IMG/VR virus record: IMGVR_UViG_3300047562_002715
Location: 1 to 28,141 of that record
Reading direction: 5' to 3' (one strand)
Source of the DNA: a virus
DNA: 28,141 nucleotides
This document shows, piece by piece, positions 8,201 to 26,810 of this stretch. How positions within the stretch are numbered: the first letter of the stretch is position 1; every line of letters begins with the position of its first letter. The position numbers and the translations under genes are program-made. Under the pieces are notes generated by a model. That model searched no databases and had not been told where the DNA came from. It was given only the letters and a program-made list of their open reading frames with translations.

Positions 8201-9767
8201 TTAAGAAATCGCCATTTTTCTGGTATAAGGTAATTAAAGAACTATCCGTAACAGAATCCTTTAGGAATGCAATCGCGCCGCTATTTTTTCCCTGAACGAA
8301 TGTTGGTACGGTAAGAGTTATTGGTTCGTTTAGGGTAATTTCTGTAGTAGTTTGTACATCATATAGAGAAATGTCCCATTGATTTAGATCTGAATTTGCT
8401 GCGTCATATGAACCAGATTCTAATCTGAAGTCATATACTCTAGCTACACCAATTTCCTTTCCAGGTGCTGTTGTTGATGCTGCACCAACTCTTTCACTTC
8501 TTAAGCTAAGAACATATGTATTTCCAATACCGATAGTTGGGCTTCCATAAACTCTATTTAAAGTTAGAGTTGATCCAGTATTATAATTGATTGCCAAATC
8601 TTTTAGAGTTGCTGTAGTTCTTGGTTTTTCAGAATCCAAAAATACTGGGGAAATTGTTTCGACTTCATATCCCCTAACAAATGCCTTTCCGGGAGAAATC
8701 TGATAAACTGCTAGACTTTCTGAAGGTGTTGACCCACCATAAGTAAACTGACCCTCATTAAATATGCCGTGGTTTCCTAAACCATCATTTAAAGACTCTT
8801 TTATTGTTAGATCGAAAGGAGTTACATAGTAATCTCCAGACTCTGCAAATGTTCTTCTCGCCAACTCATCTTCAATTAAATTGTAATCTTTTGTGGAACG
8901 ATTTGTTTTGATAACACCATCAATAATTGTAGCAAGTTCTACAAAATTGTTATCATTAAAATCTGTTAGATCTTTTTTGAATAGAGATAGTGATATTTTT
9001 AATCTATCCGCACCGGGAGCTGAATAGTTGTTAAATCCTTGCGAGTTGTCATTTAGGGATTCGTCAATATCAGAATTAATTATTTCTTCATTGACAAATA
9101 AACCAACCCTATAATTTGAATTGTTAGAATATTGGTCTAGAATTAAAGTTTCTGTCGATACATTTACAAAGTAACCTCTAACAAAGTAAACACCTTCTGT
9201 GATGGAAAAGGCTGAACCAGTAGAAGTTGCATTAGTTGCCTTTGTGATGGCAAAGGGAGAATTTGCAGTTATTGCAGTATTTCCAAGTAATCCTGATGTA
9301 ATAGTTACACTAGTTAATAATCCCTCACCATCCAAAAATTCAACCGTAGAATTATTCTGGGTACTAGAGCTTATATAATTTAGATATAAAGTAGTAGATC
9401 CTCTTTCAGAATCTGCAGATAGAAGAACTTTTTCAACAACTGCAGTGATACCTGATGTTTGTCCCGTTATTTTTGTACCAACAAGCTGCTCAACATATGC
9501 ATCTACTGGAACTCCCAAATAAGAGTTCTCTAATTCAACTGCATAATAAAATTGGTTGTATGAAATGTTGCCAGGAATAACTTTAGCACCTTCTTTAAAA
9601 AAGTGCTGACCAAATCTTTCTACCTGGTTTTGTAATATTGATTGTAATGTTGTTAGCTCTCTAGCTTGTACTGGATATCCTGGTTTAAATAATACTTTAT
9701 GATAGTCATTATTCGCGTCAAAATCGTCAAAATATGGCGCAACATTGAGATTGGTTACTTGGGACAT
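2214..9767 (-). CDS. Giant DUF4815-type baseplate/tail structural protein, 2517 aa
   Basis: A 2517-residue virion protein. The N-terminus (PYFDDFDANNDYHKVLFKPG, then YPVQARELTTLQSILQNQ, residues 11-48) is the hallmark start of DUF4815 proteins of cyanophages. Other visible parts, in order: an extremely aromatic Tyr/Gly/Trp tract at about 1341-1379; a conserved block at about 1687-1805 that begins WWDPLAQSFLV, continues with PVLFQIRTMQNGYPTQ and ends in KEYAIVVGSNS; glycine-rich GxGY modules at about 1903-1995; and a C-terminal lectin-like or beta-sandwich region ending in NLRVIALA. It sits between gp8 and gp13, where T4 carries genes 9, 10, 11, 12 and wac, so it may do the job of several peripheral baseplate or fibre proteins. 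That role is inferred from position. It starts 6 bases after the gp8 stop, and no frameshift is seen over 7.5 kb. Confidence 0.85.
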   Translation of the reverse strand: MSQVTNLNVAPYFDDFDANNDYHKVLFKPGYPVQARELTTLQSILQNQVERFGQHFFKEGAKVIPGNISYNQFYYAVELENSYLGVPVDAYVEQLVGTKITGQTSGITAVVEKVLLSADSERGSTTLYLNYISSSTQNNSTVEFLDGEGLLTSVTITSGLLGNTAITANSPFAITKATNATSTGSAFSITEGVYFVRGYFVNVSTETLILDQYSNNSNYRVGLFVNEEIINSDIDESLNDNSQGFNNYSAPGADRLKISLSLFKKDLTDFNDNNFVELATIIDGVIKTNRSTKDYNLIEDELARRTFAESGDYYVTPFDLTIKESLNDGLGNHGIFNEGQFTYGGSTPSESLAVYQISPGKAFVRGYEVETISPVFLDSEKPRTTATLKDLAINYNTGSTLTLNRVYGSPTIGIGNTYVLSLRSERVGAASTTAPGKEIGVARVYDFRLESGSYDAANSDLNQWDISLYDVQTTTEITLNEPITLTVPTFVQGKNSGAIAFLKDSVTDSSLITLYQKNGDFLRNESFIFDGVSNNRIATAITSHTISDVKSVYGIVGAAKTFTADTIQSDAFLVGIATISSESGGISTITSTNPNFPGKIIKVGNLVKYSNNLSQEPAYASVVSVGTTTVEISGVTSVTGINQGSLPQSDLIVTDLKITATRSTRSNDDTLFTILPRPNVSSVNLDEASITIRKTYNVSISGNQLSVPVNAGENETFLPFDEERYSLIRSDGSTEVLTSDRFDYIGGSKQLQIYNLGSDDNATLVATLTKIKPKAKNKLKNRVSSIIVNKSKLSASGTGTTTLNDGLIYGNYPYGTRVQDETLSLNVPDIVNVWGVYESKTTADPSAPTLVLSSISGPSTKTTDLILGEQFIGQLSGAIGVCAERLTDSQISFIPRNETTLKEGETITFEESGIQAVITTIDSPSLNISSNYKFDNGQRGTFYGHGTITRTANSSSPTKKLKIYFSSGYYQDSDDGDITTADSYTGFDYVKDIQTVNSVRNCDTLDIRPRVSDFTVTENSRSPLEFYGREFDRSGNSAANILASDESIITTFSFYLGRIDRIYVRKDGTFQVKYGVPSEKPEKPISIDDALEIATVTLPPYLFDISQASVQFLEHKRYRMVDIKQLENRIKNLEYYTALSTLESSTANLFVPDNDGLDRFKSGFFVDNFSSLTSQENGIPFENSIDLKNKELRPKHYTTAVDLIPGPVEGLDPDVDYAFEQPEGNNIRKTGDLITLDYSEVEWLKQSIATRTESVTPFVISFWQGTIELTPSTDTWVDTVRLDAKIINVEGNYSQTMAQAQQQFNVDPQTGYAPTVWGAWETNWTGKEVIESVSVRSDTSYNYGYYGYYGGWWWGWPYGYYGYYGYWGYYGYWRRRWGYSTTTVTQDTYREVKETGVKSRTGTTTFVTEQFDRESIGDKVVSRDLVQYLRSRNIQFIAKNIKPLTQVYAFFDGVDVTKFCTPKLLEISMISGVFEVGETVIGTVAKTGLSETSIEESDPKIAFRVAQSNHKEGQYNSPSSTFPLNPYTSQPLPATYSSTSEVLNIDTFSLCAQYQGEYSGWVQSGMTLVGKTSGAQASITNVRLVSDVYTSLIGSFYIPNPNISVNPRFENGSKTLTLINNNINDHNLASTIAEEKFISSGTIETVQENIISTRNAKIEQKQELEQENVSRTTGNQLVKSEVVSKSTNWYRCPWWDPLAQSFLVQEESGVFLTRCELFFKTRDDADIPVLFQIRTMQNGYPTQTILPFSEIILEPDSVNISNDGSVPTSFTFKSPVYLEGGKEYAIVVGSNSTKYNAYISRVGEVDILTQSYISNQPYLGSLFKSQNASTWEASQWEDLKFTLYRAEFIDSGSVDFYSPELRPGNSQVPTLLPNSLNLNSRQIRLGLSTAIYDANLTLGNTILQQGTDASGNYIGNAGIATGALQIINAGIGYTPSSGIATFTNIDLISITGNGRDAKADITISNGVAIGATIVNSGNGYQVGDVLGISTLGSSPVGRDALFSLVSIASTNELILDNVQGEFLTTGVGNTVLYVNNVGLTTVLNYSFGGDVQVDEKNVDNDGLHIVVNHKNHGMYFSDNYVEISGVESDIPPTKLSTDYAFDSTASIPVVDSINFASFENVGVSSTNPGYALIGKELFEYRATSVGSLDDITRIGYIDPTFFSPTASMAVDHLSGTPVYKYELGGVSLSRINTTHYLGDATVADPIKFDSYNIKLDMSSNGTDRTLSSGFPKLYINETKLGGGFNIKATQNIPFELITPSVQNITVQGTALSAEIRTVTASSISGNEIPYVDVGYEPLALDKTNYFNTPRLIASKINETSKLGTIPGNKSMNIRMFLNTVDSRVSPVIDTQRISAILTSNRINSVITDYATDNRVNTLGTDPSAFQYVSKEITLENPASSIKIIIDAHINTYCDIRAFYAIGESQNFIPIFTPFPGYNNLDARKQIINFENSNGLPDTFVQQTTSFGFESGNIEYREYNFTADNLPSFRSYRIKLVMTSTNQVYPPRARNLRVIALA
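5630..5746 (-). repeat. Tyr/Gly/Trp-rich repeat tract inside the DUF4815 gene
   Basis: This stretch encodes about 39 residues made almost only of Tyr, Gly and Trp in short units such as YGYYGYYGG, WWWGWPYGYY and GYWGYYGYW, followed by an RRRWGY basic patch. At DNA level it shows degenerate repeats of 'ccatagtaa' and 'ccataataa' on the plus strand. It is flanked by ordinary Ser/Thr-rich sequence and is in frame. Nothing similar occurs elsewhere in the window. Confidence 0.9.
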
Positions 9768-9773
9768 AATTCT

Positions 9774-11327
9774 TTAGAACTGCAAAATGACTTTAATATC
9801 TTCTTTTTGATTTGATGACCTAGTTATTGATGGTCTATTATCTACGTAGATAATATTTCCAGAATATCTTTTAACTTCTGGACTCGACAACCCGTTTGTA
9901 AAAGACTGACCAAGGTAGTATGTTCTATTATTTATTACGGTAGATACACCAGTGAATGAAGTGCTTATCGATAAAACTGAACCAACATTTCCATTTATTA
10001 CTAAACTTCCCCCAGTAAGTGGATTACTTGTAAATTCAACCAAATCAAATCCATAAATTGGATTTGTTTGTGCTGTTCCTACCGTATTAAATCCTGCTAG
10101 AGTTCTATCTTGCCAATATTTCAAAACTCCTGTGGTTTGGTCATAACTAACAACTCTACCAACTGCAGTAACACCTGTTCCAACTGTTTGAGTTATAAAT
10201 GAGTCTGGAGTAAAGGTTGCAGAATCAAATCCAATACCAGATAGTTTGATTGCATTTAGAGCACTCGCTTTCTCAAGATTTAGAATCTGGGAAGAGTTAA
10301 ATGCTTGGGGATTTTCTACTATTCCAACTCTTGCAATTTGATTGCCAGTTATAAAATCAGGATTTTCATTATCATTTTCTATTCTGGAATAGAGTAGAAC
10401 ATTATATGCTCCCAATTCTCTGTAGATATCTGCTCCATGCCCACCTTTTGGTGAGATGATGACATCAAATGTTGGTCTTGTTGAACCAGTTGGAACTCCA
10501 CCAGCAACTAAATCTACGTTTCCGTAAGTGTACCCAGATCCCTGATTTGAGATGACTACAGACTCTACTTGTTGGTCATTATTAACAGTTATTGTACACT
10601 CTGCACCAGTTCCATCTCCACTAATAGGAACTCCAGTATATGTTCTATTTGCAGTTCCAATACCAACTCCTCTATTCGTTATGGTAACTATTTTAATAGA
10701 TCCATCAATAGCATTATCTCTTACAGATGCATTCTCGCTACCAGTTTCCCAATCCGAAGGAACTGGCATAAAATCTGTGGATTCAAATTTTACAATATCA
10801 CTTGGTCTAATTGTGTATAGATATTTCCAAATATATCCATCTCCACTAGTACCAGCCGCTCTTGGTTCTAAGTCAGTGAATGTTGGTTCATCTAGAGATG
10901 GTCTTCCTCTTGGATTTTCTGGGTCTGTTCCATTTTGGAGACAAATATAAACTTTATAGTCACTATTAACGACATAATATGAAGCAGAATATAGATTGGT
11001 AGATCCAGATATTGGTGCTATATTTGACCTACTGTAATCATGTCTATAATAATCATATGTTAGTCCTGATGTCCAATTTCTTTTTTGGACAACTTGGCGA
11101 ACGTCAGATTGAGAAATCTTCTTTAACGCGATTATTGTATCCCAATAGTCATTTTCTTCATTAAAACTATCTTTTGGTGCTGGAGGATTTGTATTCCAAT
11201 CACTTTGAACATCTGTAGGATTTGGTAATCCTACAAAAGCATAATACGAATTCACATTCGTAGATACTCCAGCAATGAAGTTTTTTGCATTTAATATTCT
11301 AATCTGATCAGTTATAATGGCTGCCAT
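9774..11327 (-). CDS. gp8: Baseplate wedge protein gp8, enlarged
   Basis: A 517-residue homologue of T4 gp8 (334 residues), a component of the baseplate wedge. Aligned from memory, the T4 landmarks are present in order: VVQKRNW at 79-85 (T4 VIPRRDW), SGDGYIWKYLYTIRPSD at 161-177 (T4 GDGYVWEYLFEIPP), and the C-terminus SGNIIYVDNRPSI...EDIKVILQF at 489-517 (T4 SGEMIYMENRPPI...EEINILFTF). The extra length lies between the second and third landmarks. It includes a glycine-rich GxGY module at about 207-280 (TITNRGVGIGT, GTGAECTITV, ISNQGSGYTYG) like those in neighbouring proteins. The gene sits between gp7 and the gp9/10-position gene, as in T4. A late-type promoter octamer lies 20 bases upstream of the ATG. 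Confidence 0.93.
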   Translation of the reverse strand: MAAIITDQIRILNAKNFIAGVSTNVNSYYAFVGLPNPTDVQSDWNTNPPAPKDSFNEENDYWDTIIALKKISQSDVRQVVQKRNWTSGLTYDYYRHDYSRSNIAPISGSTNLYSASYYVVNSDYKVYICLQNGTDPENPRGRPSLDEPTFTDLEPRAAGTSGDGYIWKYLYTIRPSDIVKFESTDFMPVPSDWETGSENASVRDNAIDGSIKIVTITNRGVGIGTANRTYTGVPISGDGTGAECTITVNNDQQVESVVISNQGSGYTYGNVDLVAGGVPTGSTRPTFDVIISPKGGHGADIYRELGAYNVLLYSRIENDNENPDFITGNQIARVGIVENPQAFNSSQILNLEKASALNAIKLSGIGFDSATFTPDSFITQTVGTGVTAVGRVVSYDQTTGVLKYWQDRTLAGFNTVGTAQTNPIYGFDLVEFTSNPLTGGSLVINGNVGSVLSISTSFTGVSTVINNRTYYLGQSFTNGLSSPEVKRYSGNIIYVDNRPSITRSSNQKEDIKVILQF

Positions 11328-11371: not shown

Positions 11372-14300
11372 TTATATTATATAATTTTTATATTTTAGTG
11401 GAGAACTTCTAAAAATAAGTGCCGATGATGAGATACCAGATATGCCATTATTTGTATATGCATTATACTGATTTTCAGAACTTCTATAAGATAAATTAAT
11501 TTTACCCCAACTAAAGCTTCCAAAATAAAAAGATGATGTTGATGAACCAAAGGAAACTGTTGCCATTCCACTAACTCTTGCAAATACTCTTCTAACTATA
11601 GTTGTTCCTATTCCAGTTATCGTTGATAATACATCACTTGCAGAATCTACTTGATAGATGTTATCTATGCATGTAGTAGCAATACCAATAGTATTTCCTA
11701 TATTATCTAAAGAATAGAAACTATCAGTCGAGAAACCAACATTAGAATCGTAAACAATAAAATAATCATCTTGATTTAAAGAACTTAATGTTACTGCAGA
11801 TCCTACCAAGGATGAATCTCGCAAGTAAGAGTCTTCTGGAATATAAAGGTCAAAAATAACTTTATCCGCTGAAGAAATGGTAGTCGTCCCAAATCCAACA
11901 ATAACTCCAGAATCGCCAACAAAGTTTGTGACTGCATCAGATTCATAATTTGCAGAAGGGGTTTCTATTAGAACTTTTGGTGGATTTGGTTGGGAATATT
12001 CAGTTCCACCAAAAGAAATTGAAATGCTAGTAACTACACCAGAAGAAACTGATGCAATTCCAGAAGCTCTTTGGGTAGTTCCAAGTCCAACCGGAGTTTC
12101 AAAAACAACTACTGGGGTTGAAGTGTATCCAAATCCACCATCAGTTATAGTAACAGATATTACTTCTCCTGTAGAAGAAACAGTCGCAGTAGCAGAAGCC
12201 CCAACTTTGTTCTCCTGAGATATAATGGTAATATTATTTTGGAAATCTAACTCAATATCATTTTCATTCTGGGGATCAAAGAAAGGTCTTAGATTATCCA
12301 CATAAACAGTGGTTGAACCCACACCAACAGACTGAATAATATACGCTGCAGGATATATTGATGGTTCATATAATGTTCTATCTTTGCTTATTTCTTGCTC
12401 ATTAATAATCTTATCTTCAGTTTGTTTGCACCATATTACTGGTCTTCTTAATGTTGGATCCGTTGTATTTCCAGGACCATAATATGGATTTGTATCAACT
12501 AAGTTTGTAGATTTGATATCAAGAACTGTTCTTGGATTTTCTAGTAGAGTTGCTGGTTGCCCAAGCAAAGAATCGTATGTTAAAATAATATCATCTCCAA
12601 TTTTTACCGTTTCCAGTATATTTCGGAAAATAACATCAACATCCCCATTACCCTTGTAGAATAAAATCTTACAAGTATCTCCAATTTTTGGTGCTTCTGT
12701 GAATTCAATAGCACTTCCACCATTAAATACGTATCCCTCTCCAGGAACCTGAAGAATATCATTAACGAAAACTAAAAGAGTATCTTGAATTGTAATATTC
12801 GAACCCTTTTCAGTCAATACAGAAACAATCTGTCCCTGATAGTATAGTGGGAAAATTAATCTCTGATCGTCAAAAAGATATTCTATATTATCGAATATTT
12901 GTATTTCACCAACAGACCATCCAGTAAATTTATCATTAAATATTCTATCAACACGTACCTCAAACTCTTTAAATGATGGTGATGATGTTGTAGGAATACC
13001 TGCAATTCCACCAATAGGAATAGTCAAAACATCTCCAACAGTATATCCATATCCAACATTATTGATGGTAAAATCAATAACGCTTGAACCTTGTCCAACA
13101 ACAATATCAATAGTTGATTGAGTTCCTATACCTGAAGAAGAACTTGAGTATACAAGAGGTATATTTGAATATGATAATGGATCGTCAATGATAACATAAG
13201 GTGGGTTTGTTGACGTATATCCAACTCCTGGGTTTGTGATGGCAATACTAACAATATTACCGTTATTGACAGCAGCAGTTCCTATGAATTCTATGTTTGG
13301 AGTTCCTGTGCTTGAGGTTGCAACGGCAACTCTAACAACAACAGGTTCTATACCAGTTGCAGTTTGAATTCCAGATCTATATCCAGAACCACTATTTCCT
13401 ATACTAATAGAAGCAATAGTGCCTGCAGTTGATACGATTGCTGTTCCTCCTGCAGATATTAGTGGTTGATATCCAAACCCTTCAGTTGAACCAACAGAAA
13501 CTATCAAACCACCCACCGGTAAAGTTGATGTATTAATATCAGATGCTAGAGATGTTGCTGCTCCGACGAATGATATTGAAGTTATACCTGCATCTTCATC
13601 TAAAGTGTATGAATTTGTCAGTCCAGGAGGTTGGAATATATCATTTATTAAAACAATTGCATTATCTGAGGATATTCCTGTTATGTTTAAACCTTCAGAG
13701 GTTAAGGTAAATGTCTTTCCGATACCATTAAATCCAGAAGAAATATCATCAAATATGTAATTCTTATAATATGTCTCTTCTGTAGTCTCTCTAGTTCCAT
13801 TCTTTAAGAACACTCTTCCTTGGAAGCTTGATCCAGTAGAAATTCCTATCCAATCTCTTTCATCTGGGGGATTTGTAGTAGATGATAATGGAACATTGCC
13901 ATATGGAGCTGATACAAAGTTTATTGTATTATCTACAATATTATAGTTGCCAATAACTTTGGTTACAGTTGTTCCTGTAGAATGTCCAACAGATTCTGTT
14001 CCCATCCAAGGTCTAATAACGCTAACTGAATTGGTGCTTCCAATACCAACACCAGAAATTCTCATTATTTCGTTATCAATCTTTAACAAATCTCCACCAA
14101 AAAGATTTGTTATGCTATCAACATAAATTATATCTTCAGAACTTAGTGCGCTAGTAGATAGTCCAGTAACAATGTCTGTAGAAACGATTGGAGATTGAAT
14201 AACATTATCGATAGTAACCAGAACTTTTGCATTTTGGTTTGTTGAGGTTATTGTATGTTCACTTCCAATACCAACAGAAACAAAATCAATTTCAACTGGA

Positions 14301-17300
14301 ACAGTTTTTAATGCATCTTCTGCACTCTTTGCAAGTTTTATAGTATTACTATCAACTTTAATAATATATACTGAGCTTGGTAATTTGTCAGTAGTTCCTA
14401 TACCAACACCAAAATATGTTGTTACTATTCCAATTGGTTCATTAATTGTTGTTTCGGAACCAGAAGAATATGTAATAAGTTCTCCACTAACAAAGAAATG
14501 ATTTGGAAGTTTGATTGTATTTTCATTTATATCTACAATAGATGAATTGCTTCCATTAAATAGTCTTTCAAATACTGGATAATTTTTGTGAGTTATGTCA
14601 AATGCTCTTCGGATATCAATATCTGTACCAAAATAATCACCATATCCTGTAGTAAATGTTCCGTTATTATAACTGACATTATCTCTAGTATCATCAATAC
14701 TTCTAAGTGAATTGAAGTAAACTTTTACTTCAGCATCTATATTTGCTATTGGAGTGAACAGAAGTTGTGTTCCATCTACAGATTTTACAGCTCCTACAGT
14801 TCCTAAACCAGAATTAGTTTCTATATTTGCAAATTCTGTTAGGTAAGTTTCTGAGTCATCATCTATCAATATGACTTCGGATAATTGATGGTAATTGTTT
14901 GTGGTATCTGATACTTGAACAATAAAATATCCACCATCGTATTCATTTGGATATTCTCCAATGACACTGGATATTGGAGACGTTGATGATGCAATCGAAG
15001 TAGATCTTGCCCCAAATTTGGCATACTTCATATCAAATGTCCCTACACCAGATACGGAAGAATCTGAAATTGCAACCTGGAGGGTGCTTATTGACGCGGC
15101 AATACCAATGTTTGGGGTAAAATCAATATTTACATTTGAACCTGTTATATATGCATTATATGTTCCAAATCCAGAAGATGCATATCCACTGGAAGATTCT
15201 GTGGATAATTGACCGTAATCTATAAACTCAATATCCGTTCCGTTATGTATAAAACTCAATTCGTCAAATTGATATTCTCCAGTGTTTGAACTAATTTCGA
15301 CTAAAATCTTTCCAGAAGTATATGTTGTTCCAAGACTAACTATCGTCGTAGAACCACTAGATACATACGTTGTATTTGTTTTTAAGTCAACCAAACCACC
15401 TAGAGTAGTGCTACCAATTCCAGAGAAGTTTTCTTTTAGATTATTTGATAAAACACTTACATAATAATCATTTACGGAATATTTTACTGGGTAAAATCTA
15501 AGTACACCGTCATTTCCATCAACAATAAAATCAAAAGAACCTAAATCATAAGATGTTTCTAGTCTTGCGTATTGGTTTATATACCCAATAAAATTATCAT
15601 GAATAAGGGTGACTAGCATCAATTGCCTTTGTCCAATATATCTCTTATCCTTAACATAAGTGATATATTTTAATGCTCTTGCATCGGCAAGTGCAAATCG
15701 ATTTATATCACTAAATCTTGTTGGTCTTGGATAACTATTAAAAGTACTACTGAAATCATCTATAGTTAAAACTCTATTTCCAACTGATTCAAAATAATCA
15801 GTCAAAACTCTACTTGTAAAATCTACCTCATTTGATAGAACTCTATTTTCAATTCTCAATGAATTTTCTCTAACTAAATCAAAGTCATATACGCAATTTA
15901 GATTTCCAAATCCAACAATGTCGGCAGTGATATCGATTATACTGGTAGAGATTCCAACAGATAACTGATTACCTTCAACTTCACTAATAGAAGGTTCGCA
16001 TTGATAATCACTAAATTTTTTAAATCCTGCCGTATGATTTAGAGATCCAACCGCATCTTCCCAAGTTTCATATGAAACTTTAGATTTTAGTGAATATGAA
16101 AAGTTTTGGTAGTAAAAATTATCTTGAACTCTCTGCAAATCATTATTAAGTACTCCAGTATCTGTAATCCACCCATTTTTTACTTTAGAATAAGGACCAA
16201 CATCAATAAATCCATTAAATTCAGTAACAGATGAGATAATACCGTTTGATTTTGAGGATAATCCCTGCAAAACTCTATCACTTTCGACATAATCCCTAGT
16301 TAAAATTTTAAGATTATTGACTTTGTTATCCCATGATTCTACAACTCCAAGTATTTCTTGCGAATCTTCATATTTTACATTTTCTCCCACTAAGAAATCA
16401 TTATTTTTTAGTGAAATATCAAAAACTGGAAAATATTTTTCTGGTATTATTCTTCCGGCAGAGTTGATTGGATCATATGTGCCAGGTTCTTCGCCAGAAT
16501 TTAAGAAATTACTCAAATTGTAGGTTATTGAACCAATACCACCGATGTTTTCATCTACTGAAGTTATTGTGAACAATTGATAGTTATAATTTTGTGAGTT
16601 ATAACCTTTTGCAGTAGAACCAATTCCAATACTAACATTCTCTACCATAATTTTATCATTCACAGAGAATGGGAAAGTATTTCCGGTACTAAATCCAACG
16701 GATAGAATTACAGAAACATCTTTAGTTGTAGAATTGTAAATGATAGTTCCAATGCCAACACCATTTGGATTTTCTGTTGGGATTATCTTTGGTGTTACTG
16801 GGTTTAATCTGTAAGTATTATTCAGAATAGTAACTTTAGTATCTCCTATAGAGTATCTTAAATCAACTTCTGGAATAATTTCTTGAGTTTCTCCATCAAG
16901 AACAATCAATTTGGGTGTAGTGTTATAACCTCTACCTACAGATGTTATTCCAATACTATCAAAAGAGCTTAATGAGTCAATTTTTACTATTTGGGGAAAA
17001 GCTAAACTTGGTCTTATTGTAAAGTCTGAAGAAAAATCAAAACCAATATCGCTAATATTGGTTTTTTCTATTCTACCAATAGTTTTACTTACTGGTTCTA
17101 ATATCGCACCAGATCCGCTAGATGTTCTAACTGTAGAAAATTCTGGTAAACTGTAGTAGTTTTGACCTTTATTTTCTATATCAATTTTTGTTATCCCACC
17201 AAAAGCATTTGATGAATTTGTCTCATAGTTTACAGTAGATATTGTTGGATCATATGAAGATGATTCTGGATTTCTTAGCAATACATAAGTAAATGATGTT

Positions 17301-20300
17301 GAAGCAATTGAAGTAATTTGGTGTTTCCCACTATAATCACTTTCAACGACACTTATTTCATTATTAGAGAATACCGTATCATCTACACTTGTAGTTTCCT
17401 TTACTTCAGGTAATACATTTTTATATACTGGATCCAATCTATAGTATAATTTTTGCGGTATATTTGCACTTATATCCAAAGTTACTTTTGCTGTCGAATC
17501 TATACCAACTCTACCAGATCTCTTTACTTCAAAAGTAGAACCATCCTCAGATTTATCAAATAATTGAGTGTAGTTGGAATCTGAATAAAAGTTCAATTCA
17601 AATGCAGAATATGTAGCAGAATCTTTGAAATATGATAGTGATGTGTCGGAAACATCAAAAGATAATGTTGAATTTTTATAAGCATTTAAAGGTGGATTTA
17701 TCAATGATAGTGTTCCATCATCGGCGGAATTAATATCCACTATTTGTGGAATAAATGATGGATCCTTTATATACAATTCGGATAATCTGACATTATCTTT
17801 ATCAAAAACAATAATATAATATTCTCCATTATTTAATAATCCTAAAGATGGTGATGCTGAAGTATATAAAACTTTTTGCCCATTTTTAAAATTGTGATCA
17901 TTTATTGTTATAGTATTTGTTACTGTATTGACACCAACTGCTGAAAAATCTTTGGGATTAATCAATACTTTTCTATTATAGTCATTATACTTAATGACAT
18001 AATTCTCAGTTGTGTTTGGACTTACATTAACAAATACATAATCGTTATTGATAAGTCCATGTGTTTGTGCTGTAGAAACAGTAACTGTGCTTCTAGAAAC
18101 GTTTCCACTAACTTTTGGATACTCAGTTTTAAAACTATGATAATTTCCTGTGCCAATTCCCAAGAAGTATAACGTTCCTGTATTTGCAGTTAAACTTGTT
18201 ACACCAACAAAAGTTCCCGTAGAACCTAGTCCAACTTTTACTGTAGAAATACCAATTAAGTCATCGGATACCTTGGCAACATAAACCGTTGATTGGTCTG
18301 TAAGAACAGAAGTTGATATTCCATCAGATGATATTAATATTCCATCTCCGCTATAGGTGGAATATAGGAGCGAATCTCCCGTATTTAAATTATGTTTTGG
18401 TAGATAAATTGTTTTTGTTGGAATTGTAATTTCTGTAATTCCAACTCCTGGATTTGAGAAAACTAATGTGGAACCAATACCCACTCCAGAAATACTACCT
18501 AAACCAACTGCCTCTGCAGGGTCAAAATAAATCTCTTTGTTTGGTTTATATGCAAATGAAGTTGACTTACCAACGTTTATACTAATTCTTCTAGGGACTT
18601 CATATAAAACGTCACTATAACTATGTGCTGTTCCAACAGTGCCATCAATAGATCTCAGAACTCTAATTCTTGATGATGGTCTATCAACCTCAAGTACTTT
18701 TACCCTTTCACTTCCAATAGAGAATATGTCATTCTCTTTAACATTTGAATATGCAATATTTCCGGAAACCGAGAAATAAGTGACTATTCCAGTCAATCCT
18801 ACAGTACCAACTCCACTTGGACTTGATATTGAAAACGTATTTGTAGTAACTCCAGCAGAATAAAAAGATCTATCTAATATTGAACTTGTATTAAGACCTG
18901 ATAATGTAACCAGATCTTTATTATTAATACCATGTGGCGAATCAGATTCTATAAAGAATAATCCACTATTACCTTCTTGTGGATAAATTTCAACATTATA
19001 AACAGTCGTTGAAGCAACGCTGATAGAGTTTACATTCTTTCCACTAACTCTGGAAACCTTGGATGATAATCCAAATCCTCTAGTATCATTATCATTAAAT
19101 ATTATCCTATCATTTACTTTATATTGAGATCCTCCCGAAATAATTTTAATGTCTTCAACTGATCCGGGAGAAGCATATTTAATATCTACCGTTTGATTTA
19201 GATCATTTGGTAAATTAAAATATGGATATGATGCGCTATTCTTAAACAGATTATAATGTTTAGTATTTCTTATCCAATTGCTACTATTTAAATCATAATC
19301 ATCTTGGTTTGAGTTATCGTCAAAGTTAAATTCATTTGGTTTAGACTTGAAGGTATTTCCTATTAGATATGGAAAAGCTGGCAATCTATAACCACCAAAA
19401 GATAGTGAAGATGAAGAATCTATAGTTGCAAAATATGCATAAGTCCCATTTGGGAAATCTGGAGTTATACAGAATCTTCCGTTATGTTCATCTAACACAG
19501 TATCATCATCATTATTATTATACTCATAATCTTCAATGAAAAATCCATTTGGGAATGGTGGTCTATCGCTTAGGGGATTTAGAGAATATCCTGAGTTTAG
19601 TCTTGTTACTATTCCGCCATCTTTTTTAGAATAACCATAGGGTCCATAAATTGGATTTCCATCATATGCCCATCCAATAATTGGTGAGTGGTCTGTAGAA
19701 GAAACTTCACTATTATTAAATATTCTTAAATCAGTTTTTCCATAAAGAATATCACCACCAAGTTCCACTGCATAAATGCTTTCTCTTAGTTTTCTTGGTG
19801 CATATACGTGACCATACTGCAATCCATATCTTGAAATTGAATTTTTAAATATAAATCCATCATCTCTTTTTATGCTACTCAAATTTTTCTGGAACAAATT
19901 AACTGTCCAAGATTTTATTTTTGGTTGTAAATCTGCGCCACTTCCCGGAGATATAGCTTCGATGAAAGTATTTTTTGGATCATATCCAATTCCACTTTCA
20001 ATAATTTTTACAGATGTAATAGTGCCATTTTCCAGTACTGGAGTGATAACAGCACCTACACCTTCAGATTCAGTACGAATAGCCAAATCTGGTGGAGCAA
20101 TATATCCTGAACCTGGATTATTAATAAGAACTTGTTCAAGTTTACCCCCATTTATTATCGGTATTAATTTGCAACCAGAACCAATGTTTAAGTTTACTTG
20201 AGGATTTCTATTGAAGTTTAGAACTTCAGATGATCCATATCCAACGCCATTTTCTTCTAAGTGTACTGAAGTAATTTCTCCTCTAAAGATTGGTTGTACC

Positions 20301-23300
20301 TTTGCTGAGAATGTCTCTCCATTTATGGAAGATATTCCTACCCTACCAACAACTTCAACGCTAATTTCAGGATAATTAAATGAATGAACTCCACTACCAG
20401 TTGATGTTAGATTGATATATTGCTTATTTCTGTAATAAAAATCTTTATTGCCAGTTTCTATGCCAACTAAAGATAATCTAAATTTATTATCATCGACTTT
20501 TGTAACGTAATAATTTTCTCCAGCAGTTAATCCACCAATAGAACTTCCTGTTGTGCTATATTTTACAATTTCTCCAGAATTGAAATCGTGATTCTTAATC
20601 TCTATATTTTCAATAGATGTTGTTATTCCGGATGCTATTGCAGTTCTCTTCTTGTTCTGATAATTAACGCCACCACTCTGAACATTAATAGAATTGATAA
20701 CAGACTTCTTATTATATGATTCTATGTACTGATTACCAACACCAAATGATGTTAATGAAATTGTATTGATACCAGATAATGCATCGCTATAAGTATTGTG
20801 GAATTTTATTGTATACTCATCAACAGTTGAAACAAAATATGAAGAATTAGTTGATATTCCACCAACACCTTCTTGCGAATCAGTTCTATAAACAACTCTT
20901 TCACCGTATCTAAATTTGTGATATGTGGTGAAACCAATAGAATTATTTGAGGTGTCTACTTGAGACGATTGTGGTTCTGCATTAAAATATACTTTATGAT
21001 CTACCAGTTTTAAAGAAGCAAATGCCTTTGCACCAATTCCATTACCTCCGCTTATTTTTATTTTTGGAGTTTCAAGATAATCAAATCCAGGATCAATAAT
21101 CCTTATCGCTCTAAGAGAACCATTTACAGAACAATATCCAGTCGCACCAGTTCCAACCGAATCTGAGATTACTAGAGTTGGTGGATTTATAACGTCATAA
21201 TCAGCACCCGTGCTATTAACTTCAATATCCTCTAGAGGACCATAATAAATCCTATCCTTAGATTTGTAGTTTAATATTTCTACACCATTGATTAGAATAC
21301 CAGTAGAACCTGGATCGGTGACATACTCACCTCCATCATTAATTGGTGGTCTCAGTTCTCTTAGTAATTTTTGTGACTGTAATTCTAAAGAATACTTTTC
21401 ATAATCTTCAATCGTACTATTTGAAACCGTTACTGGATTATCTAATGAAACGAAAATTGAATTGTAAATATTTGATCTACTTTTTGCAAACCTAACAGTG
21501 CTTGCGTTTATTCTTTGTATAAAATACAATCCATCTTCAAACAAAGAACCATTCGAAGATGTGTAATAAACAGATTCTCCCGTATAGAATCCATGGTCTC
21601 TGTTCGTTGTTATTTGGAAAGAATCGCCAACGAAAGTCCCTGAGAAAGTAATAGAACGAGCAGAAGATTTTAGTGGCAAATCACTATAATGAGGCAGAGA
21701 AGGTGTAGATACTAAAACTTTATCTCCATCAGCATATGCATTTTGGATATTAGCAATTTCCGTATTAATATTTGAATATACTTCCGACTCAGCTTTGAGG
21801 ATTAATTTTCTTACTGTATATTTTTTTGTAGTATCTAATACTCCTTGTCCAGAAATTTTAACACTATTTTCGGATACAACAGAAATTACTTTTGTTTCAC
21901 TCTCACTTCCAATACTTGATACTAAATTTAACTTGTCACCAATTTTAAAATTGTGAGCAATTATTGTAGTCAAAAGATATGTATTATCTGTAATATCAAT
22001 TAATTGTAAAGTACTTGATTCTATTACGATGGAGTTATTAAAGAACCAACTATTATACACATTAGAATCTTTTGGATTTAACCCTAAAGATCTTATAATA
22101 GCTCTCTCACCCTTCTTATAATAGTAAGAATCCGAATCAAAAGTTACATTAGATAAAACTGGATTTATTTTTACCTTTATAGTTTCATTTCTATCTTTGT
22201 TTGAAGTTCCATATGCATAAACGTTTAAACTTATTTCAGTAGAATCTTTAACAGTTTTTTCGATATTTTGACAATCGTGAAACTGGTTAAGATTTTTTGA
22301 AGAATATGTAATAACTCCTTCAGTTCCATCGTCATATACTACTGCAATTTCTCCCTGATTTGGAAATCCGATAGTAGAATCAACATCGATAGTTGTAGAA
22401 CTTTGGGAAACATCTCCAATAATTTTGGTTTTGGGGTGGATGGATAAATTTCCATACAAAGATCCATCAACACGAATATCTCTATTATATCCACCATCAA
22501 AACTTAATTTGTAATATACTCTTCCATTTTTGGATACTATCTTTTCTACATCGGAAATTGCAGTATAACCACTTGAAATAGAACCATACTCATCTTGGAA
22601 GAGAGTTGAATTGATGAGATCGGTTGGGTCGCCAGAAATACTCTCTACTACTAAATCATTTGTTACTTGATATTGAGCATCTGATGGTCTTACAAGTAAG
22701 TCTCTTGGCTTGATAACACTAACATCTTCACCATAAAGAACTTTAAATAAGATTTTAAATGAGTTATCAGTTCCTCTTGTTGAATAAAAATCTTTAGATT
22801 GCTTTATAAAAAGATACTTATCTAATCCAGTGTAAAAATCTCTATTCTCAAATCCAGGAGTTAACTGGTATTTAATTTTATTGAAAAATTCTGCCAGGAA
22901 GAGAGAGCTCAAATTCTTTACTTCAGACCCACTTGTATGGTCCTCTGACAGCGAAGTTTCGAATACTAGATGGTCTGGACGGTTTTCATCATTATATGAT
23001 GTTGTCCCACTAAAACCTCTTGCACAACCTAAAAAGGAATTCTCTGTTTTTCCTGTATATGTGATGATTTCATTATCAATTTGTATCAATCCATAATAAT
23101 CTGGAAATCCTATAGTGGATTGAACATTAATGGTTTCATCCAAGAAAGAAACATCAGATGACAATAGCGTAGATTCTTCCTGACGCTTTATTGTATCTAA
23201 TTTAATATATTGGTCAATATTTTGAATAAGATCTGCTGGTGCTCCCTGAAATTCTTGGGAGATATAATACTGTTTTAAAAATTCGGCAACTAGAGGAAAT

Positions 23301-23368
23301 TCTTCCCTAACATATGAAGGGAGTTGATTTTGAAGAACGTTGTTGATCTGAATTCTCTTTTCTGTCAT
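11372..23368 (-). CDS. gp7: Giant gp7-like baseplate wedge protein with repeated beta-modules and a YHYH-like domain, 3998 aa
   Basis: A 3998-residue intact frame, about four times the length of T4 gp7 (1032 residues). The N-terminus carries a gp7 signature: SKDFYSTRGTDNSFKILFKV, then LYGEDV, at about 190-215, corresponding to YDFYSTKGIEASYKFLFKVL in the C-terminal part of T4 gp7 (recalled from memory). The preceding segment (FPLVAEFLKQYYISQEFQGA) also matches there. In T4 gp7, with gp6, gp25 and gp53, initiates the baseplate wedge; the gene's place between gp6 and gp8 fits. The rest is modular. An IDNEIITYTG/GCARGFSGT unit is at about 75-125 with a second copy near 3073-3135. About nine HNF/YYV/VD modules lie between 469 and 3019. 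GxGY modules occur near 712-786, 1030-1155, 2056-2160, 3300-3455 and 3720-3806. A YHYH-like domain lies at about 1180-1345. VGIGT/S micro-motifs are scattered throughout. The start is 4 bases after the gp6 stop. Confidence 0.85.
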   Translation of the reverse strand: MTEKRIQINNVLQNQLPSYVREEFPLVAEFLKQYYISQEFQGAPADLIQNIDQYIKLDTIKRQEESTLLSSDVSFLDETINVQSTIGFPDYYGLIQIDNEIITYTGKTENSFLGCARGFSGTTSYNDENRPDHLVFETSLSEDHTSGSEVKNLSSLFLAEFFNKIKYQLTPGFENRDFYTGLDKYLFIKQSKDFYSTRGTDNSFKILFKVLYGEDVSVIKPRDLLVRPSDAQYQVTNDLVVESISGDPTDLINSTLFQDEYGSISSGYTAISDVEKIVSKNGRVYYKLSFDGGYNRDIRVDGSLYGNLSIHPKTKIIGDVSQSSTTIDVDSTIGFPNQGEIAVVYDDGTEGVITYSSKNLNQFHDCQNIEKTVKDSTEISLNVYAYGTSNKDRNETIKVKINPVLSNVTFDSDSYYYKKGERAIIRSLGLNPKDSNVYNSWFFNNSIVIESSTLQLIDITDNTYLLTTIIAHNFKIGDKLNLVSSIGSESETKVISVVSENSVKISGQGVLDTTKKYTVRKLILKAESEVYSNINTEIANIQNAYADGDKVLVSTPSLPHYSDLPLKSSARSITFSGTFVGDSFQITTNRDHGFYTGESVYYTSSNGSLFEDGLYFIQRINASTVRFAKSRSNIYNSIFVSLDNPVTVSNSTIEDYEKYSLELQSQKLLRELRPPINDGGEYVTDPGSTGILINGVEILNYKSKDRIYYGPLEDIEVNSTGADYDVINPPTLVISDSVGTGATGYCSVNGSLRAIRIIDPGFDYLETPKIKISGGNGIGAKAFASLKLVDHKVYFNAEPQSSQVDTSNNSIGFTTYHKFRYGERVVYRTDSQEGVGGISTNSSYFVSTVDEYTIKFHNTYSDALSGINTISLTSFGVGNQYIESYNKKSVINSINVQSGGVNYQNKKRTAIASGITTSIENIEIKNHDFNSGEIVKYSTTGSSIGGLTAGENYYVTKVDDNKFRLSLVGIETGNKDFYYRNKQYINLTSTGSGVHSFNYPEISVEVVGRVGISSINGETFSAKVQPIFRGEITSVHLEENGVGYGSSEVLNFNRNPQVNLNIGSGCKLIPIINGGKLEQVLINNPGSGYIAPPDLAIRTESEGVGAVITPVLENGTITSVKIIESGIGYDPKNTFIEAISPGSGADLQPKIKSWTVNLFQKNLSSIKRDDGFIFKNSISRYGLQYGHVYAPRKLRESIYAVELGGDILYGKTDLRIFNNSEVSSTDHSPIIGWAYDGNPIYGPYGYSKKDGGIVTRLNSGYSLNPLSDRPPFPNGFFIEDYEYNNNDDDTVLDEHNGRFCITPDFPNGTYAYFATIDSSSSLSFGGYRLPAFPYLIGNTFKSKPNEFNFDDNSNQDDYDLNSSNWIRNTKHYNLFKNSASYPYFNLPNDLNQTVDIKYASPGSVEDIKIISGGSQYKVNDRIIFNDNDTRGFGLSSKVSRVSGKNVNSISVASTTVYNVEIYPQEGNSGLFFIESDSPHGINNKDLVTLSGLNTSSILDRSFYSAGVTTNTFSISSPSGVGTVGLTGIVTYFSVSGNIAYSNVKENDIFSIGSERVKVLEVDRPSSRIRVLRSIDGTVGTAHSYSDVLYEVPRRISINVGKSTSFAYKPNKEIYFDPAEAVGLGSISGVGIGSTLVFSNPGVGITEITIPTKTIYLPKHNLNTGDSLLYSTYSGDGILISSDGISTSVLTDQSTVYVAKVSDDLIGISTVKVGLGSTGTFVGVTSLTANTGTLYFLGIGTGNYHSFKTEYPKVSGNVSRSTVTVSTAQTHGLINNDYVFVNVSPNTTENYVIKYNDYNRKVLINPKDFSAVGVNTVTNTITINDHNFKNGQKVLYTSASPSLGLLNNGEYYIIVFDKDNVRLSELYIKDPSFIPQIVDINSADDGTLSLINPPLNAYKNSTLSFDVSDTSLSYFKDSATYSAFELNFYSDSNYTQLFDKSEDGSTFEVKRSGRVGIDSTAKVTLDISANIPQKLYYRLDPVYKNVLPEVKETTSVDDTVFSNNEISVVESDYSGKHQITSIASTSFTYVLLRNPESSSYDPTISTVNYETNSSNAFGGITKIDIENKGQNYYSLPEFSTVRTSSGSGAILEPVSKTIGRIEKTNISDIGFDFSSDFTIRPSLAFPQIVKIDSLSSFDSIGITSVGRGYNTTPKLIVLDGETQEIIPEVDLRYSIGDTKVTILNNTYRLNPVTPKIIPTENPNGVGIGTIIYNSTTKDVSVILSVGFSTGNTFPFSVNDKIMVENVSIGIGSTAKGYNSQNYNYQLFTITSVDENIGGIGSITYNLSNFLNSGEEPGTYDPINSAGRIIPEKYFPVFDISLKNNDFLVGENVKYEDSQEILGVVESWDNKVNNLKILTRDYVESDRVLQGLSSKSNGIISSVTEFNGFIDVGPYSKVKNGWITDTGVLNNDLQRVQDNFYYQNFSYSLKSKVSYETWEDAVGSLNHTAGFKKFSDYQCEPSISEVEGNQLSVGISTSIIDITADIVGFGNLNCVYDFDLVRENSLRIENRVLSNEVDFTSRVLTDYFESVGNRVLTIDDFSSTFNSYPRPTRFSDINRFALADARALKYITYVKDKRYIGQRQLMLVTLIHDNFIGYINQYARLETSYDLGSFDFIVDGNDGVLRFYPVKYSVNDYYVSVLSNNLKENFSGIGSTTLGGLVDLKTNTTYVSSGSTTIVSLGTTYTSGKILVEISSNTGEYQFDELSFIHNGTDIEFIDYGQLSTESSSGYASSGFGTYNAYITGSNVNIDFTPNIGIAASISTLQVAISDSSVSGVGTFDMKYAKFGARSTSIASSTSPISSVIGEYPNEYDGGYFIVQVSDTTNNYHQLSEVILIDDDSETYLTEFANIETNSGLGTVGAVKSVDGTQLLFTPIANIDAEVKVYFNSLRSIDDTRDNVSYNNGTFTTGYGDYFGTDIDIRRAFDITHKNYPVFERLFNGSNSSIVDINENTIKLPNHFFVSGELITYSSGSETTINEPIGIVTTYFGVGIGTTDKLPSSVYIIKVDSNTIKLAKSAEDALKTVPVEIDFVSVGIGSEHTITSTNQNAKVLVTIDNVIQSPIVSTDIVTGLSTSALSSEDIIYVDSITNLFGGDLLKIDNEIMRISGVGIGSTNSVSVIRPWMGTESVGHSTGTTVTKVIGNYNIVDNTINFVSAPYGNVPLSSTTNPPDERDWIGISTGSSFQGRVFLKNGTRETTEETYYKNYIFDDISSGFNGIGKTFTLTSEGLNITGISSDNAIVLINDIFQPPGLTNSYTLDEDAGITSISFVGAATSLASDINTSTLPVGGLIVSVGSTEGFGYQPLISAGGTAIVSTAGTIASISIGNSGSGYRSGIQTATGIEPVVVRVAVATSSTGTPNIEFIGTAAVNNGNIVSIAITNPGVGYTSTNPPYVIIDDPLSYSNIPLVYSSSSSGIGTQSTIDIVVGQGSSVIDFTINNVGYGYTVGDVLTIPIGGIAGIPTTSSPSFKEFEVRVDRIFNDKFTGWSVGEIQIFDNIEYLFDDQRLIFPLYYQGQIVSVLTEKGSNITIQDTLLVFVNDILQVPGEGYVFNGGSAIEFTEAPKIGDTCKILFYKGNGDVDVIFRNILETVKIGDDIILTYDSLLGQPATLLENPRTVLDIKSTNLVDTNPYYGPGNTTDPTLRRPVIWCKQTEDKIINEQEISKDRTLYEPSIYPAAYIIQSVGVGSTTVYVDNLRPFFDPQNENDIELDFQNNITIISQENKVGASATATVSSTGEVISVTITDGGFGYTSTPVVVFETPVGLGTTQRASGIASVSSGVVTSISISFGGTEYSQPNPPKVLIETPSANYESDAVTNFVGDSGVIVGFGTTTISSADKVIFDLYIPEDSYLRDSSLVGSAVTLSSLNQDDYFIVYDSNVGFSTDSFYSLDNIGNTIGIATTCIDNIYQVDSASDVLSTITGIGTTIVRRVFARVSGMATVSFGSSTSSFYFGSFSWGKINLSYRSSENQYNAYTNNGISGISSSALIFRSSPLKYKNYII
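14310..21960 (-). repeat. Array of about nine dispersed FCCH-like modules within the gp7-like gene
   Basis: The encoded protein repeats a 45-65-residue unit: His-(Asn/Asp/Gly)-Phe-like turn, a G(D/E/Q)xVxY strand, a variable loop often containing GGL or LL, then YYV or YFI, V(D/N)xxxxR/K-(L/F)(S/A). Examples are IKNHDFNSGEIVKYST with YYVTKVDDNKFRLS (about residues 924-966), INDHNFKNGQKVLYTS with YYIIVFDKDNVRLS (1823-1866), and LPNHFFVSGELITYSS with YIIKVDSNTIKLA (2953-3019). Others begin near 469, 588, 809, 1473, 1655 and 1766. The pattern resembles the modules often labelled E1 FCCH-like in phage tail proteins; that match is from memory. The copies are diverged, so they are repeats at protein rather than DNA level. 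Confidence 0.65.
17039..17065. other. Perfect 11-bp inverted repeat inside the gp7-like gene
   Basis: The plus strand has AAAACCAATAT, a 5-base loop CGCTA, and ATATTGGTTTT, a perfect stem, followed by further T residues on the plus strand. It lies within codons for KTNISDIGF. The stem is AT-rich with a short T-tract, so it could act as a weak terminator of antisense transcription or an mRNA hairpin, or it may be chance. Confidence 0.4.
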
Positions 23369-23372
23369 TTTG

Positions 23373-25301
23373 TTATGATCTTACTAAATTTCCGTTACTG
23401 TAGCTTGAAGTTACAATATAGTTTGATGCCGAAGGATCAAGTCCAGATGCTATTTGGTCTGGAATCATTTCGAAAATACTCTTACTAATATCTAGTTGCA
23501 AATATAAATCCTGTAATCCAATTACATCATTTGACCTTGGGATGGCAGAAATTTCTATAATAGATTGTCCATCCTTAATTTTACCTTCAAGAATATTAAT
23601 AGGATTTAATGTTATAATACCATTCACATAATCTATTGTTCCAACATTTCTCTTTAAAACTGTTGCAGTAGTTGAATTCACATTTGGAACTGTAAATAAG
23701 AAGATTGAACCCGTTGTCCTGTTGGAATCTGGTATATCTGACAAATATACAGTCTCTTGGAATTCTGATATTCTAAATCCAGATGATTTGATGTTATATC
23801 CATCCATACTCTTAATATGGAATGCATTCCCAAATCCAATTTGATATTCTGCGATTGTATTTAATGCAACTCGCAAATCCCTTCTAATCTGAATTTTAGT
23901 AATATTTGAAGTAACAGATTCGTGACTATCATCAATTATCTTCAAGAATTTACTATATTTAAATCTTGCACCATACTTATTTAAGTCAGTTGATTCTGAG
24001 TATTTTGTAGCATTTGATTGAATGATAGTAGAAACAAATGCAGAACTTGGAGCTAGATTTGTGTTGTAATATACCTTTGAATCTACCTCAACAAAAAGAT
24101 ACTTCAGATCTAGTATTTCGGGTACTATACCAGCAACAGCATATTTTTTTAAATCTCTCTTTATGTTTTCCTTAATTAGATTTGGTATAAAATCTCCTGT
24201 TCTTGGTTTTATGCTTATGAAGACTTTTCCATATTGTGGAGGAATTAACTCTTCTCCACCAAATACAGAGATTGATTCTGTCTCTGGATAAATTTTTGAT
24301 GGGATTAGTGCTTCGTAATCATTTGCAGATAATGCTCTATTCTGTGATGAATATATTCTTGGTGCATATCTACGAATAGATTCCACTGATTCAATATTTT
24401 CGCCGCCCTGAGATATAACACCAGTTGTAAGTAGAGATATTCCAGAAGTTACCTGATACTCTATTGAGTTGCGAGTATATGATAAACTTCCAGAAAAACT
24501 AAATTGACCAATTCCATTACCACTATCACCATTTGAAGTTATATAATTTATTTCAATAAAATTATTTTCTTCTAGTTTTTTCCCAAATAAAACGCCATCA
24601 CCAAAAAATATTTCATATCTCTCATCTTCAATTTCTTGAATATAGTAAACATTGGAGTTTTCATCAATGTCAAATACATTATCTTGCAATCTATACTTTA
24701 TAGATGATGTAGATGAAACATTTTCTCTTACTTTTACTGATATTAATGCAGTATCAACCCCCGCATTTGGTAGTATGAATCTTTGATTTACGTTTCTTGC
24801 ACTATATGTGAAGTTGCTTGTGAGTAAAACGCCTTCATATATCTGAATATCATTAAATGATGCAATATTATCTACAACTGGAACAGTAATATCATCTAAA
24901 ATCGAGAATACGAAAGATTGATTGCCAAAAGATCCTGATGTGGTTGCAACAACACCCTTCTTCAACGTCAATGTTGATGGTACTGGAGTGATGTCTGTTG
25001 TATCTACAAAAAAGCTTACCGTTGCTAGTGCTGCTTTTCTTGACCTTGGAATATATCCAATATTTCTTGCAAGTGATACAATATTCTCTCTTAACGAAGC
25101 ACTATCAATAAACACTTCATTTGAAACCATATTTGCATTATATGAAGTGATATAAGTGTTATATGCTAAAACATCTATAATAGTTGCCAAGTTGGATCCT
25201 TCAAAATCATAATCCGTAAAATTGGAATTTGATTTTAAGTAATCTTTTATAGATGTTTTAATCTGGTCAAAATCCAGATTTGAAAAATTTACTAATGGCA
25301 T
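23373..25301 (-). CDS. gp6: Baseplate wedge protein gp6
   Basis: A 642-residue protein, close to T4 gp6 (660 residues). The N-terminal region (IKDYLKSNSNFTDYDFEGSN at about 18-37, then LAYNTYI at 45-51) matches T4 gp6 (NEFLDYDFEGSRL...LLAYNTLYI) as I recall it. Later landmarks also correspond: DERYEIFFGDGVLFG (T4 TEFYFGEGEIS), EINYITSNGDSGNGIGQFSF (T4 IEYISTNGADANGAVGFSY), and KVFISIKPRTGDF (T4 AFIAAKPKSGLY). gp6 dimers form the inner ring of the baseplate and join neighbouring wedges; gp25 and gp7 bind it in the core bundle. The family extends to baseplate J-like proteins. The ATG follows the gp25 TAA directly with no intervening base, so translation is probably coupled. Confidence 0.96.
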   Translation of the reverse strand: MPLVNFSNLDFDQIKTSIKDYLKSNSNFTDYDFEGSNLATIIDVLAYNTYITSYNANMVSNEVFIDSASLRENIVSLARNIGYIPRSRKAALATVSFFVDTTDITPVPSTLTLKKGVVATTSGSFGNQSFVFSILDDITVPVVDNIASFNDIQIYEGVLLTSNFTYSARNVNQRFILPNAGVDTALISVKVRENVSSTSSIKYRLQDNVFDIDENSNVYYIQEIEDERYEIFFGDGVLFGKKLEENNFIEINYITSNGDSGNGIGQFSFSGSLSYTRNSIEYQVTSGISLLTTGVISQGGENIESVESIRRYAPRIYSSQNRALSANDYEALIPSKIYPETESISVFGGEELIPPQYGKVFISIKPRTGDFIPNLIKENIKRDLKKYAVAGIVPEILDLKYLFVEVDSKVYYNTNLAPSSAFVSTIIQSNATKYSESTDLNKYGARFKYSKFLKIIDDSHESVTSNITKIQIRRDLRVALNTIAEYQIGFGNAFHIKSMDGYNIKSSGFRISEFQETVYLSDIPDSNRTTGSIFLFTVPNVNSTTATVLKRNVGTIDYVNGIITLNPINILEGKIKDGQSIIEISAIPRSNDVIGLQDLYLQLDISKSIFEMIPDQIASGLDPSASNYIVTSSYSNGNLVRS

Positions 25302-26661: not shown

Positions 26662-26810
26662 TAAATTTCCTCCAGTTCAATTAAATTAGGATCAATATCA
26701 TCTCCCGAGAAAAAGCGTTCCGAGAGGTCTTGAAGAACCTCAGTACATTCTTCTGCACTGAGGTTTGTATAAATCTTACGCCCTTTATAAAGTACGTTAT
26801 ATTGTTTCAT
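26661..26810 (-). CDS. Small conserved cyanophage protein, 49 aa
   Basis: A 49-residue protein (MKQYNVLYKGRKIYTNLSAE...ending in NLIELEEI). It starts within the stop codon of the glycosyltransferase gene (TAATG overlap at 26810), and its own stop overlaps the next start in the same way, so three genes are chained by one-base overlaps. The motif YNVLYKGRKIYTNLSAEE is of a kind I know from many short cyanophage proteins. It is also similar to YHIYAKEKCIYHSLKEEE in the 74-residue protein on the other side of the glycosyltransferase. The fold is probably a short beta-hairpin followed by a helix. No function is known to me; there are no membrane or metal-binding motifs. Confidence 0.82.
   Translation of the reverse strand: MKQYNVLYKGRKIYTNLSAEECTEVLQDLSERFFSGDDIDPNLIELEEI

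Follow-up and report, generated by a model that had tools for sequence, protein, structure and literature searches.

In the sea, few viruses are as abundant as the T4-like cyanophages and pelagiphages. The baseplate wedge to which theirs can be compared is that of phage T4, whose members are gp7, gp11, gp10, gp8, gp6, gp53 and gp25, with gp7 being a monomer present in six copies per tail (PMC3004832). T4 gp7 (1,032 aa; PDB 5iv5, 5hx2) is encoded between gp6 and gp8. A further T4 gp7 ortholog has been described for Vibrio phage XM1. This protein, gp17, has only 242 residues and joins two gp6-type chains via an N-terminal helix-turn-helix (residues 1-48), while its regions 80-106 and 201-242, which are unresolved in the structure, hold the tail spikes (PMC10457771). 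For pelagi- and cyanomyophages T4 gp7 has been stated to be absent, with VrlC acting as its substitute (PMC7029224).

The closest described phage for the gene investigated here is the Synechococcus phage S-SM2 (GU071095). Its ortholog SSM2_097 (4,156 aa) is annotated as "gp7, baseplate wedge initiator", and gp7 is known in this distinct virus by annotation alone. Both genes share the block layout described below as well as the gene order gp25-gp6-gp7-gp8-VrlC, and the proteins are 54% identical over residues 1-429. The name gp7 for this gene is therefore already known, from the annotation of the S-SM2 ortholog and from PHROG 2885. In contrast, a description of the split colinear core or of a pelagimyophage gp7 was not found in the searched literature, the scope of which left out most subscription journals.

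Gene neighbourhood and gp7 identity of the giant ORF

The DNA analyzed here (the window, 28,141 nucleotides) comes from a virus record that is itself only a fragment of 28 kb. According to Pfam and PHROGs names its gene order is gp25-gp6-giant ORF-gp8-VrlC-gp13-gp14, all on the minus strand. The baseplate wedge/sheath initiator gp25 (133 aa, positions 25302..25703) was recognized by PF04965 (E=1e-13) and the baseplate wedge protein gp6 (642 aa, 23373..25301) by PF21379 (E=8.5e-16) and PHROG 219. The giant ORF comprises 3,998 codons with its start at 23368 and its stop at 11372, and the predicted mass of the protein is ~436 kDa. It is followed by the baseplate wedge protein gp8 (517 aa, 9774..11327; PF09215, E=7.3e-17) and by a VrlC/DUF4815 structural protein of 2,517 aa (2214..9767; PF16075, E=9e-55; S-SM2 annotation). 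The genes of gp13 (1776-928) and gp14 (922-2, truncated at the contig end) complete the window. In T4, gp8 is followed by gp9-gp12, whereas VrlC occupies this place in the window. The neighbours named by Pfam and PHROGs agree with the order gp6-giant ORF-gp8, which the original prediction had cited in support of its assignment as gp7.

A false giant ORF caused by a frameshift or an assembly error was ruled out, as homologs of 3,980-4,460 aa are encoded on many independent contigs.

The gp7 core signature that had been postulated near the N-terminus of the 3,998-residue protein is real. A phmmer search with residues 1-263 against all PDB chains matched residues 186-218 to T4 gp7 726-758 (FFESRSYDFYSTKGIEASYKFLFKVLYNEEVEI) at E=1.8e-4; another gp7, that of PDB entry 9f4a, was hit at E=5e-4. 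The T4 segment quoted in the original prediction is correct and lies within the C-terminal third of T4 gp7. The signature itself (SKDFYSTRGTDNSFKILFKV) occupies residues 191-210 (22739..22798, minus strand), one position further than the span of about 190-209 given before. When the full 3,998-aa protein was used as phmmer query against the PDB, nothing was obtained at E<=0.1; probably the short signature is diluted in the whole protein, so that the 1-263 segment is required. The Pfam family PF23786 "Baseplate_wedge" matched residues 181-223 with E=1.4e-5 and 25.1 bits, which narrowly missed the cut-off of 27 bits. Profile-profile comparison by hhalign of the T4-type gp7 core with the family of the giant protein yielded E=5.6e-9 over T4 725-826, and PHROG 2885 "baseplate wedge subunit" spanned residues 1-3340 with E=0.

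A structural model of residues 1-434 was calculated from 90 related sequences and was of moderate quality (mean pLDDT 76.6, pTM 0.44). Foldseek comparison of this model with 350,542 PDB chains gave only two matches under E=0.001, namely 9f4a_A0 (1,031 residues, E=3.9e-5) and, second, the T4 chain 5iv5_BJ (1,004 residues, E=8e-5). Entry 9f4a is the variant baseplate of Klebsiella phage KP1. Both 9f4a and 5iv5 contain gp7, and the lengths of the two chains fit gp7. The fold comparison with gp7 proposed in the original prediction thus came out in its favour. The TM-scores to gp7 were low (0.12), and consequently the Foldseek result backs the gp7 identity and not a detailed superposition. Taken together, PF23786, the profile-profile match and the first two Foldseek ranks argue against a chance occurrence of the gp7 signature.

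Since the record of the window is a 28-kb fragment, the presence of a second gp7 gene was investigated in its relative S-SM2. The complete S-SM2 genome contained a single match to T4 gp7, which is the giant gene; a separate gp7 gene was not detected there, as the original prediction would have it. We conclude that the giant gene very probably codes for the gp7 ortholog in a T4-related myovirus of cyanophage type (Kyanoviridae-like); in this protein the core is colinear but split, and the insert would form an outward peripheral loop.

Core blocks A, B and C

By sequence, the gp7 core consists of three blocks in constant order: block A, a helical hairpin; block B with the motif DFYxSRGT..LFKxLY and the beta region following it; and block C with the motif QDxxYYQxFSY..HPxGF. 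In the giant protein, block A comprises residues 1-58 (23195..23368, minus strand). According to hhalign it corresponds to T4 gp7 ~643-689, where the T4 helical domain PF21428 is located (643-689). The helices of block A are seen in the model, the confidence of which is modest in this part. A small beta module of about 90 residues (~61-150; 22919..23188, minus strand) separates A from B; it appears as a gap in the alignment with the short gp7s and as beta strands in the model. Block B (residues 154-258; 22595..22909, minus strand) carries the DFYSTRGT...LFKVLYGEDV signature and was defined by the phmmer match to T4 726-758, by HMM and by hhalign. Block C (GVLN..QRVQDNFYYQNFSYSLKS...LNHTAGFKKF) was located by hhalign and HMM at residues 2388-2460 (15989..16207, minus strand) and corresponds to T4 gp7 ~847-892. 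Its T4 counterpart reads YYVMKIKSNLPSSRWKSDVIRFVHPVGF.

Short gp7-like proteins were gathered using Xanthomonas phage X1 as bait and aligned, and a profile was built from 60 short gp7s. These proteins consist of little beyond the three-block core. In hhalign comparisons the profile aligned to T4 gp7 in one stretch (641-906, probability 98.6, E=7e-16). To the giant protein it aligned in two stretches, residues 1-255 (probability 99.7, E=2.9e-26) and residues 2350-2460 (probability 97.7, E=1.7e-12), the latter containing the block C pattern GxLN..QDxxYYQxFSYxxKS...HxxGF. The residues Y93, Y98, H118, G121 and F125 of block C (numbering of the aligned segment) are invariant in 69 sequences. A search for block C by regular expression missed all of the short gp7s, and HMMs were used instead. 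The block-C HMM detected SRB7757 (1e-25), HTVC008M (3e-22), phiM7 (2e-18), X1 (1e-12) and RL2RES (2e-6), each time at the colinear place, and it also matched S-PM2, P-HM1 and S-RIM2. T4 847-889 was matched weakly (E=0.0011), again in colinear position.

The distance between blocks B and C is 2,234 aa in the giant protein. It has a median of 2,263 aa (range 1,644-2,451) in 38 large proteins, as opposed to a median of 316 aa (163-858) in 59 short gp7s. As block C is found at ~2388-2460 and the order is that of T4, the core of the giant protein is colinear but split by ~2,000 residues. Judged from the sequences, the gp7 core is interrupted by an insertion and not rearranged.

The direct similarity of block C between T4 and the window is weak (hhalign probability 3.5-20%, E about 0.001-0.012), so the short gp7s have to serve as a bridge. 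Moreover, block C was poorly modelled in isolation: the AF2 model of residues 2328-2532 had a mean pLDDT of 58, only a ~60-residue beta unit before block C was confident (~90), and Foldseek gave no significant match for it. Both observations would also fit a genuine N-terminal gp7 core followed by one long C-terminal tail, with block C as a motif common to phage baseplates in general. However, the one-stretch alignment of the short gp7s to T4 641-906 puts this block on T4 ~864-892, and the order of the blocks is equal across every lineage. The fetched loci comprise 1,607 ORFs, and block C occurred in none that is clearly not a gp7. It was found only in gp7 candidates that have the N-terminal core as well, in ORFs cut by contig ends and in the latter part of one gp7 that is split, and in no case did it precede the N-terminal core. 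The generic-motif explanation is therefore unlikely, and block C is regarded in the following as the other half of the core of gp7. The split gp7 mentioned is a short one that is encoded by two ORFs of 566 and 380 aa (L092:5995-8780), with the N-terminal core in the first and block C in the second.

The original prediction had described the giant protein as a permuted or re-built gp7 in which the core was moved to the front and the peripheral part replaced. Indeed, T4 gp7 has the signature in its C-terminal part and the giant protein in its N-terminal part, as expected if a T4-like gp7 had truly been permuted. However, the core also stands first in 59 distinct short proteins of 471-1,029 aa, in which the signature of block B lies near residue 90 (median); the only exception is RL2RES with an N-terminal extension of 267 residues. 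The core comes first, with block C later, in most of the non-T4 gp7s detected, including X1 (498 aa), SRB7757 (587 aa), Sinorhizobium phiM7 (1,006 aa), HTVC008M (1,016 aa) and dozens of environmental proteins, and for the four named phages the neighbouring genes agree where annotated. In addition, the A-B-C order is unchanged, and hhalign profile comparison found no counterpart of T4 gp7 1-640 in the giant protein (probability 0.4%). The N-terminal, peripheral part of T4 gp7 is thus missing from the giant, as had been assumed, but the terms "permuted" and "moved to the front" do not apply. An extension at the N-terminus of T4 gp7 is the simpler explanation, and a true permutation appears very unlikely. 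Since a core at the front is usual among the gp7s found, the ~640 leading residues of T4 are an apparent addition and look like a lineage-specific N-terminal extension. The short gp7s also have no leading region of such size; consequently, T4 1-640 was not treated as defining the family.

The colinear arrangement also bears on the published absence of gp7. Pelagibacter phage HTVC008M encodes a 1,016-aa "putative structural protein" (L277:33435-36485) between gp6 and gp8, with gp7 blocks at residues 2-58, 166-415 and 685-836. On the strength of its sequence, which contains each of the three core blocks, this protein is a gp7. Since it shares the block layout of the giant protein, the statement that pelagi- and cyanomyophages do not possess gp7 is contradicted. 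According to that statement (PMC7029224) VrlC would replace gp7, and the giant would have to be an unrelated virion protein with a borrowed short gp7-like motif; the restriction of the pairwise similarity to T4 gp7 to ~33 residues is consistent with such a motif. In contrast, profiles find the whole of blocks A, B and C in the protein encoded between gp6 and gp8, in the giant and in HTVC008M alike. Profile comparison revealed neither a gp7 core nor gp7 similarity in VrlC, and the independent fold search put T4-type baseplate chains of gp7 length first. A replacement of gp7 by VrlC is thus very unlikely.

The colinear split core provides a simple evolutionary model, in which a fixed core received insertions at two positions and was extended at either end, instead of permutation or gene replacement. 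It defines the boundary between core and periphery in proteins of 3,000-6,400 residues. With both halves of the gp7 core located, structural biologists know where to look.

Insertion, C-terminal extension and the baseplate periphery

The giant insertion between blocks B and C extends over residues ~330-2335 (16364..22381, minus strand). Its limits, which were derived from the B-to-C distance relative to the 59 short gp7s, are uncertain; T4 gp7 has no such insertion. A YHYH domain (PF14240, E=4.2e-22) lies within it at residues 1222-1318 (19415..19705, minus strand), and the YHYH motif was found in 73 of 94 large homologs. Block C is followed by a C-terminal extension of ~1,460 residues (~2535-3998; 11372..15766, minus strand), as deduced from the block positions. 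The original prediction had spoken of nearly 3800 residues of repeat modules behind the signature. Recurrent module types are indeed present, namely GY-type and "STxGFP"-type beta units, but the same region also holds the YHYH domain and the second gp7 core block at ~2388-2460.

Three of the environmental viruses sampled have a separate ORF for the region past residue ~2,900. There, the giant gp7 is encoded by two adjacent ORFs of ~2,905-2,939 aa and ~1,100-1,180 aa (L187:1092-13121, L190:999-13358 and L207:987-13105).

For the assembled baseplate we propose the following arrangement. One copy of the giant gp7 would be present per wedge. The helices of blocks A and B would pack with two gp6 chains below gp25 and thereby make up the core bundle of the wedge. 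Despite its distance of more than 2,000 residues in the sequence, block C would fold back on the A/B half and close the gp7 core, so that the inserted chain would exit the wedge and loop outward with its beta modules. The periphery of the baseplate may then be formed by six of these ~200-kDa loops and the C-terminal arms, in combination with gp8 and VrlC. This periphery might carry sites for fibre attachment or carbohydrate contact, the equivalent of which T4 builds from gp7 domains and gp9-gp12. XM1 gp17, a protein of minimal size, may be likened to the giant by its description, with core-bundle helices at the N-terminus and spikes on flexible regions outside.

Since no Kyanoviridae baseplate structure, high-resolution or otherwise, was found, we infer the copy number, the outward course of the loop and any receptor contact from these comparisons. 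By analogy, the added modules may have a peripheral or receptor-binding role. YHYH-type domains have been listed among putative host-recognition elements (PMC7029224), and one might guess that the YHYH domain of the giant protein contacts a receptor.

The gp9/10 domain (PF07880) was not detected in complete S-SM2, S-PM2 and P-HM1, and gp11 (PF08677) was not detected in five relatives. Apparently, the missing gp9/gp10 N-terminal domains and gp11 leave the periphery to other components in S-SM2, S-PM2 and P-HM1. Neither the giant protein nor VrlC showed sequence similarity to gp9, gp10, gp11 or T4 gp7 1-640, a comparison that is weak for VrlC with its profile of just 5 sequences. Moreover, S-RIM2 keeps a gp9-like gene despite an even larger gp7. 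Any takeover of gp9-gp12 roles, which the original prediction considered possible, may therefore not be a simple one-for-one exchange. We tentatively suggest, at somewhat less than even chances, that the Kyanoviridae baseplate is of a distinct kind: gp7 would itself be the periphery, and besides the core in two halves a ~200-kDa YHYH loop and a C-terminal arm would replace the gp10-gp11-gp12 pins and contact the host.

The S-RIM2 gp7 gene is annotated with 6,378 codons (L270:10012-24303 and L278:1-9353), and its product contains an extra insertion of ~500 aa that separates block A from block B. Behind this gene lie the gp9-like gene, a gene for a 1,713-aa protein and then the next baseplate wedge gene.

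Some further features of the window were noted. Residues 1341-1378 of VrlC (5634-5747, minus strand) form an extreme Tyr/Gly/Trp tract (YNYGYYGYYGGWWWGWPYGYYGYYGYWGYYGYWRRRWG), for which a simple pattern scan found no counterpart in the other fetched ORFs. Only ~440 bases (1777-2213) lie between VrlC and gp13/gp14, unlike the large host-recognition island reported between VrlC and gp14 in pelagimyophages (PMC7029224). Two ORFs upstream of gp25, 26810-27574 (254 aa) and 25723-26484 (253 aa), both on the minus strand, received no Pfam assignment above cut-off; by eye only, the former resembles a glycosyltransferase-type protein. In the neck protein gp14 (2-390, minus strand) GY-type repeat modules follow the conserved domain, and modules of this type are common to the giant gp7 and gp8.
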